Assembly: GCA_918272565.1 (NCBI GenBank)
Contig: CAKJYW010000018.1
Location: 1-49,082 of the forward strand
Length of the DNA stretch: 49,082 bases
Reading direction: 5' to 3'
Source of the DNA: Bacilli bacterium
GTDB taxonomy: Bacteria; Bacillota_I; Bacilli_A; ML615J-28; CAG-698
Both the position numbers and the translations under genes were made by a program. Below, in pieces: positions 6,203 through 7,225 of this stretch; position 1 is the first letter of the stretch, and each line of letters starts with the position of its first letter. The notes beneath the pieces were generated by a model. The model saw only the letters and a program-made list of their open reading frames with translations. It did no database searches and was not told the origin of the DNA.

Positions 6203-6220
6203 AGAATATTAAAATCAATA

Positions 6221-6248
6221 GAAGTCAGCAATGCTGACTTCTTTTTTT
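6221..6248 (+). terminator. terminator after the LURP-one-related gene
   Basis: Near-perfect hairpin GAAGTCAG-caatg-CTGACTTC followed by seven T. Confidence 0.9.
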
Positions 6249-6258
6249 GTGGAAAACC

Positions 6259-6285
6259 TTGACAAGTGTTGGGGGGGGGTATAAT
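6259..6285 (+). promoter_or_regulatory. promoter with G9 tract in the spacer (candidate phase-variable)
   Basis: A perfect TTGACA (6259-6264) and a perfect TATAAT (6280-6285) are separated by only 15 bases, nine of which are consecutive G (6271-6279). Gain of two G would give the optimal 17-base spacing; loss would weaken the promoter further. A homopolymer at this exact place in such an AT-rich sequence suggests slipped-strand control of the gene starting at 6306. The expected transcript start (about 6291-6292) leaves a very short leader that begins at the ribosome binding site AAGGAGAG. Confidence 0.75.
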
Positions 6286-6305
6286 GTTAAAAAAGGAGAG
6301 AATGG

Positions 6306-7196
6306 ATGAAAGAAAGAGAACAAGTCAAAAAAAGAGTTGCAAAAGAAATAGGTGAAAACAAAAAAGTCTTTTATTATAGACTATTTATGATAATATGTTT
6401 TGCTGTTGGTGCTTTGGCTATCCTCGCTTGTATTGTCCCTAGCGATGGAACAACCGAAGAGGAAACATCTTTTTCTTTGGCTGAAACCATTGCTTTTGCT
6501 ATTTTGCATATAATAGCAGGAGTAGTTTTGCTAATGCTATATTTGAAACAAAAAAAGGCGTTAGAATCTGATGAGATAAAAGAAAAGATAGACATCGAAA
6601 CAGAGGAAGCTTACAAAAGATATTTGGAGCTTACTAATGAATTGAATATTCAAAAAGATACCGCCCTTGATATTTGTGTTACTTCAAAAAAAACAGCCAA
6701 TTACTTGCAAAAGACTCAGAATGCGAGGGAAAAAAGAATTGAGAAAGGTGAAGAAAGAATACCTTTTACAATTCAAGGTAGTATAACAGAAGTTTATAGT
6801 ACCTATCCTTTTGATACTGCTATAGCAATAGATACAGGGAATAAGGTGATACAACTATCTGGACCGCTATACATACAAGGTGTGTACAAAAATACACTAA
6901 CTCCGGTTATCCCAATTTCATCAATTATTAAAGTGTACGAGTCAAATAATGAGGTTGTACAGACAAAGACTGCAACAGTTGGTGGAGCTGTCGGTGGAAT
7001 TGGCACTAATAGAATACTTGGAGGAGTAGTGAATAAAAGTAGTACAACAACTCAATACTCAATAAACTATTGTTCAGTTATTATAGAGATTGATTCATTA
7101 GAAATTCCAATAATTAGATTATCATTCAACACTAATGGAGTAGAATCATATAGGTTTTATAAAACAATAAGCCTTTTAATTGAAAAAAATAAATAA
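6306..7196 (+). CDS. membrane protein of unknown function under the G-tract promoter
   Basis: 296 aa, not recognised. Two transmembrane segments near the N-terminus (about residues 21-46 and 58-81) flank a short acidic loop. A charged, coiled-coil-like stretch follows (about 83-125), then a soluble C-terminal domain with a Gly-rich turn (GGAVGGIGTNRILGGVV, about 227-243) before a Ser/Thr/Asn stretch. No signal peptide cleavage site and no catalytic motif is apparent. AAGGAGAG (6293-6300) sets the start. It is a single-gene unit, bounded by terminators on both sides, with its own sigma-A promoter whose spacer contains nine G. Its lone position and odd promoter suggest variable expression, for example of a surface-exposed or stress-related protein, but function cannot be inferred. 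Confidence 0.7.
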   Translation: MKEREQVKKRVAKEIGENKKVFYYRLFMIICFAVGALAILACIVPSDGTTEEETSFSLAETIAFAILHIIAGVVLLMLYLKQKKALESDEIKEKIDIETEEAYKRYLELTNELNIQKDTALDICVTSKKTANYLQKTQNAREKRIEKGEERIPFTIQGSITEVYSTYPFDTAIAIDTGNKVIQLSGPLYIQGVYKNTLTPVIPISSIIKVYESNNEVVQTKTATVGGAVGGIGTNRILGGVVNKSSTTTQYSINYCSVIIEIDSLEIPIIRLSFNTNGVESYRFYKTISLLIEKNK

Positions 7197-7225
7197 AAAA
7201 ATGGAACTATTGTTCCATTTTTTTT
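7197..7225. terminator. bidirectional terminator between 7196 and the uridine kinase gene
   Basis: AAAATGGAAC-tatt-GTTCCATTTT flanked by an A-run on the left and a T-run on the right, so it can end transcripts from both converging genes. Confidence 0.85.

Follow-up and report, generated by a model that had tools for sequence, protein, structure and literature searches.

Switching of expression by G runs in promoters is known mainly from pathogens. The porA promoter of N. meningitidis has a poly-G tract as its -35/-10 spacer, and spacers of less than 17 nt abolish transcription (as described in PMC7864442). The same source reports that tp0126 of T. pallidum carries poly-G between -35 and -10 and is transcribed best at 17 nt (PMC7864442). 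Other homopolymers are used in related ways. Insertions and deletions in a promoter poly-A tract switch the vlp surface lipoprotein genes of M. hyorhinis (PMC10502178), and one-base changes in a promoter-region poly-T tract alter the transcript level of R28/Spy1337 in S. pyogenes (PMC7098570).

The promoter described here shares the poly-G tract in the -35/-10 spacer with porA and tp0126. The first-pass annotation had pointed to homopolymer spacers as switches in other bacteria, and the geometry is indeed the same in Neisseria and Treponema (PMC7864442). However, porA encodes an outer-membrane porin of a pathogen, whereas the putative switch here precedes the gene of an orphan membrane protein in the genome of a gut-type Bacilli bacterium. 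The tp0126 gene (an OmpW homologue) belongs to a spirochaete pathogen with many poly-G tracts, whereas the source genome has two tracts of 8 or more. The vlp genes also have a homopolymer within the promoter, but it is poly-A and serves a paralogous antigen family. R28/Spy1337 likewise has its promoter-region homopolymer in Bacilli, but that tract is poly-T and is thought to work via a regulator site and not via the -35/-10 spacer. We read 6259-6285 as a phase-variable promoter in which a slippery G tract sets the distance between the hexamers, sequenced in its low state (probability about 0.74).

Promoter anatomy and the gene at 6306

The window, that is, the whole stretch of DNA analysed, is 49,082 nt long. 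Its + strand reads TTGACA-AGTGTT-GGGGGGGGG-TATAAT at 6259-6285, which a pattern search returned as the sole perfect TTGACA-N14-19-TATAAT promoter of the 49-kb window. The features are as follows.

6220..6249, + strand: intrinsic terminator that ends the upstream gene; its stem is at 6220-6242, with a T tail behind it (terminator scan: 10-pair stem, T run)
6259..6264, + strand: -35 element TTGACA, perfect (sequence)
6265..6270, + strand: non-G part of the spacer, AGTGTT (sequence)
6271..6279, + strand: G9 homopolymer adjoining the -10, the proposed slippage tract (sequence, run counts)
6280..6285, + strand: -10 element TATAAT, perfect, at a spacer of 15 nt (sequence)
6291..6292, + strand: expected transcription start, about 7 nt past the -10 (predicted from promoter geometry)
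6293..6298, + strand: Shine-Dalgarno sequence AAGGAG (sequence)
6306..7196, + strand: gene of an orphan membrane protein of 296 aa, with a pair of hydrophobic helices at the N-terminus ahead of a coiled and beta-rich C-terminal part (ORF, low-confidence model)
7195..7224, no strand assigned: terminator-like inverted repeat between A/T runs, 3' end of the gene (terminator scan)

The perfect hexamers, the 15-base spacing and the nine G noted in the first-pass annotation all read exactly so, and the gene at 6306 with its ribosome-binding site is as described there. The homopolymer lies entirely inside the -35/-10 gap (6271-6279, between 6264 and 6280). It is upstream of the predicted start and would therefore be outside the transcript, the leader of which would be about 14 nt.

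The terminator of the upstream gene stops about 10 nt short of the -35 and would shield the promoter from read-through. The scan reports the repeat at 7195-7224 on the - strand; read on the + strand, this repeat has a T run after it. Because terminators or terminator-like repeats lie on both sides, the promoter appears to drive 6306-7196 alone, as a single-gene unit facing a uridine kinase gene. The gene upstream of the promoter occurs patchily in genomes of the same genus. In the closest of these, the contig stops just past the uridine kinase gene.

The hydrophobic helices of the 6306 protein are at residues about 23-43 and 58-80, and the structural model (low confidence, pLDDT 42, no alignment used) has helices at 2-43 and 58-86. 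The flanks outside the helix pair are basic and the short loop between the helices is acidic. Because of this charge pattern and the positive-inside rule, the bulk of the protein should be cytosolic. The product is probably a hairpin-anchored protein and not a typical surface antigen. As an orphan with most of its mass probably in the cytosol, it departs from the majority of phase-variable products. No family could be assigned: there was no convincing match in Pfam, PHROGs, NCBIfam, PADLOC or the PDB, and a search of 99 relatives, genome_contigs and the viral contig, plasmid and phage collections gave no convincing homologue.

Rarity of the tract and recurrence of the design

The second-longest G run in the window, both strands counted, has 5 bases. 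Across the genome (1.69 Mb), G/C runs of at least 8 occur at two places only, the G9 here and a G10 at C15:36718-36727. The number of G9+ runs expected per genome is 0.07-0.22 under base and dinucleotide/trinucleotide models. With nine bases the tract reaches the length of about 8 or more at which slippage may be expected, and chance does not account for it. There are 34 perfect promoters in the genome (TTGACA-N14-19-TATAAT). Their spacer is 17 nt in 24 and 16 nt in 6, and lengths of 14, 15, 18 and 19 are found once each, the 15 being the 6259-6285 site. The probability that one of the two tracts hits the spacer of one of these 34 promoters is about 2e-4. The earlier suspicion that a G9 in this place is unlikely by chance is borne out by this placement and by the count of two runs genome-wide. 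The promoter is the only one in the genome with a poly-G spacer and therefore not part of a large repertoire there.

The G10 is located in a leader (L022:5590-5860, equal to C15:36589-36859). We considered it as another spacer-length switch and rejected this, its tract lying in the leader, past the -10 of a different promoter. The order in this leader is a promoter (TTGACT-N17-TAAAAT), CUCUCCCGAAAAGGCGUCGGGGGGGGGG, which pairs with the G run as a hairpin, and a strong terminator; a small KPxVE-type peptide gene and the gene of an 861-aa secreted protein follow. The fold z-score of the leader is -3.9, and Rfam gave no known riboswitch in it. The G count could tune an attenuator, or else a short ORF (MWINPASPEKASGGGYDY) with which the tract overlaps. 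Operons laid out like this one are found in two family members (L226, G024:C87, and L211, G015:C140). One has the same type of leader with a G9 (CTCTCCCGAAAAG identical), and the other has a G9 inside the spacer of TTGACT-N18-TATAAT. Similar operons seem to place the G tract in two ways, in the leader or in the spacer. In another genome (L212, G016:C4:44436-44492) a G9 lies a few bases 5' of the ATG of a sigma-factor-like gene (MTRNEFEVKYSQYYEMLFRVAYSYVKN), at the ribosome-binding site, and changes in its length could tune translation.

We surveyed 395 genomes of the GTDB class of the source organism, to which the mycoplasmas also belong, with the pattern TTGACA-N1-9-G8-N0-6-TATAAT. Perfect promoters with a G8+ spacer were found at 48 sites in 21 of the 395 genomes, with up to six in one genome. 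Three control patterns gave 0 matches each in the same 395 genomes: the pattern written backwards, C8 in place of G8 in the spacer, and G8 placed 0-20 nt beyond the end of a perfect promoter. The tract is therefore a feature of the spacer and of a single strand, and the strand bias is complete (poly-G 48, poly-C 0). Within the family of the source organism, 5 of 30 G8+ tracts (28 listed for family members and two from the source genome) fit the promoter geometry when one mismatch is allowed. With reversed flanks none of these family tracts does, the best having four mismatches.

A scan of genome_contigs gave at least 126 poly-G spacer sites in at least 119 stretches, with tracts from G8 to G14. 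The sites listed are largely from Bacilli and Clostridia of animal guts. Genomes with several sites, among the matches listed, include Lapin-016__bin44, Ancillula Gsp477_bin129 and Anaeroplasmataceae Lapin-023__bin6. The viral collection held only 5 such promoters. Bacilli of the rabbit gut (L065, L108, L135, L095, L146, L063 and L127) have a distinct promoter family, TTGACA-C(C/T)G8-10-TATTA/TAATA-TATAAT, which precedes paralogous membrane-anchored proteins (MKKIIIGVLVIIEIFSLYMMYQ, MRIINKKYLLIIILVG) in several copies per genome.

Of the proteins encoded downstream of poly-G spacer promoters, 79 of 110 among the genome_contigs matches listed and 31 of 39 from the class survey carry a hydrophobic segment within residues 1-50. 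The figure for control ORFs is 210 of 803, so that downstream proteins have such a segment about three times as often. BspA-type leucine-rich repeat proteins (adhesins) account for 5 of the 59 downstream proteins scanned; S-layer homology (SLH), Ig-like, camelysin/TasA-like and ABC transporter proteins are also present. The 6306 protein fits this membrane-protein pattern loosely.

Spacer length and the reading of the tract

In the mechanism we propose, the G tract of a sigma-A-type promoter would fix the -35/-10 distance, and slipped-strand mispairing at replication would add or remove G and shift the spacer length. With G9 (spacer 15), transcription of 6306-7196 would be weak or absent. It would be intermediate with G10 (16), maximal with G11 (17) and lower again with longer tracts. 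The cells of one clone would then differ reversibly in the level of the 6306 membrane protein. The arithmetic of the first-pass annotation, by which slippage of one or two bases moves the spacing to 16-17, is correct, and 17 nt is the spacer length of 24 among the genome's 34 perfect promoters; a small change of the tract would thus reach the optimum. Slippage in the source species and the role of the 6306 protein are what we infer. The effect of tract length on transcription by the RNA polymerase of the source organism would follow by analogy with the described systems. Length variation at 6271-6279 itself may be expected from similar copies in other genomes.

Such copies differ in the number of G. 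Two loci of one Faecalibacterium assembly have G8 (L089) and G10 (L132) between flanks that are 98.8% identical over 171 nt. Further pairs are G9 and G8 with flanks 91% identical (L065 and L108), copies at L135 with G9 and G8 (83%), G8 and G9 (L059 and L106, 85% over a short stretch), and G9 and G8 (L244 and L246, 89%). Three homologous promoters (L266/L271/L274) have spacers of 18/17/15. Unequal G counts in copies with like flanks would be the trace expected of slippage, although single cases may be assembly errors.

Among the genome_contigs matches listed, the spacers of G-tract promoters are spread over 15-20 nt, and only 10 of 113 have 17. Ordinary perfect promoters from the same survey loci (spacers 14-20) have 17 in 15 of 25 (Fisher p ~1e-7 for matches listed, the sites being partly non-independent). 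In the class sample (395 genomes) the shortage is less clear, with 17 nt in 9 of 48. Because of this and of the partial non-independence, we treat the shortage of 17-nt spacers as a lead and not as a law. At survey loci L055-L173, among the matches listed, the spacers of G-tract promoters peak at 15-16 and 18-20. Possible reasons for the shortage are that selection favours tracts at rest in an OFF state, or that the optimum is shifted for G-rich DNA.

A spacer of 15 nt, off the optimum of 17, would also suit a fixed weak promoter, in which a stable sub-optimal G spacer holds expression low and does not switch. We consider this unlikely. Nine G are unneeded for such a promoter, and the other listed perfect promoters of the genome do not have even G7 in the spacer. 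Moreover, the G8-G14 design recurs before unrelated genes, and the number of G differs in near-identical copies.

The strand bias raises another reading, in which the tract acts through binding or structure (as a regulator site, as stiff A-form-like DNA or by making the non-template strand G-rich), with its length variation incidental. The promoter strand always has G and never C (48 vs 0 in 395 genomes), a bias that slippage alone does not need; it goes beyond what slippage alone explains. Even so, we hold this reading to be quite improbable. Between sites the flanks of the tract vary widely (AGTGTT, ATTTTAATA, CCG..TATTA, TGG..TAGTTT), and so does the gap of 0-6 nt that separates the tract from the -10, both of which argue against a regulator site. 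The unequal tract lengths in near-identical copies speak against a binding or structural signal in general.

Homopolymers are error-prone in metagenome assemblies and 0.07-0.22 G9 runs are expected per genome, but it is very improbable that the tract is an artefact of assembly or sequencing, or that it arose by chance in this AT-rich DNA, as the site is internal to a 49-kb contig and an artefact would not pick promoter spacers, on one strand only, across dozens of independent assemblies. The reading as a phase-variable promoter, which the first-pass annotation had put forward, is supported by the placement of tracts in spacers only (48 vs 0/0/0), by spacers scattered round 17 nt and by near-identical copies that are unequal in G.

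Poly-G spacer promoters in commensal Bacilli and Clostridia

The mechanism itself is already known. We lean towards the view that commensal Bacilli and Clostridia, most of them uncultured, have a widespread phase-variation system that had escaped notice and is made up of poly-G spacer promoters. Some families would have several of these promoters in each genome. The G would be confined to the non-template strand, the genes downstream would mainly encode surface and membrane proteins, and the spacers would mostly rest off 17 nt. No description of the spread in commensal Bacilli and Clostridia, of the 48:0 bias of G over C or of the shortage of 17-nt spacers was found in the part of the open PMC literature that was covered. 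The breadth in these commensals, the G-strand-only orientation and the 17-nt shortage appear to be new.

These sites extend the switch design of the porA/tp0126 type to Bacilli and Clostridia of gut origin. Its restriction to one strand and the 17-nt shortage are testable regularities. For the source organism, clonal heterogeneity is predicted for one membrane protein, the product of the gene at 6306.
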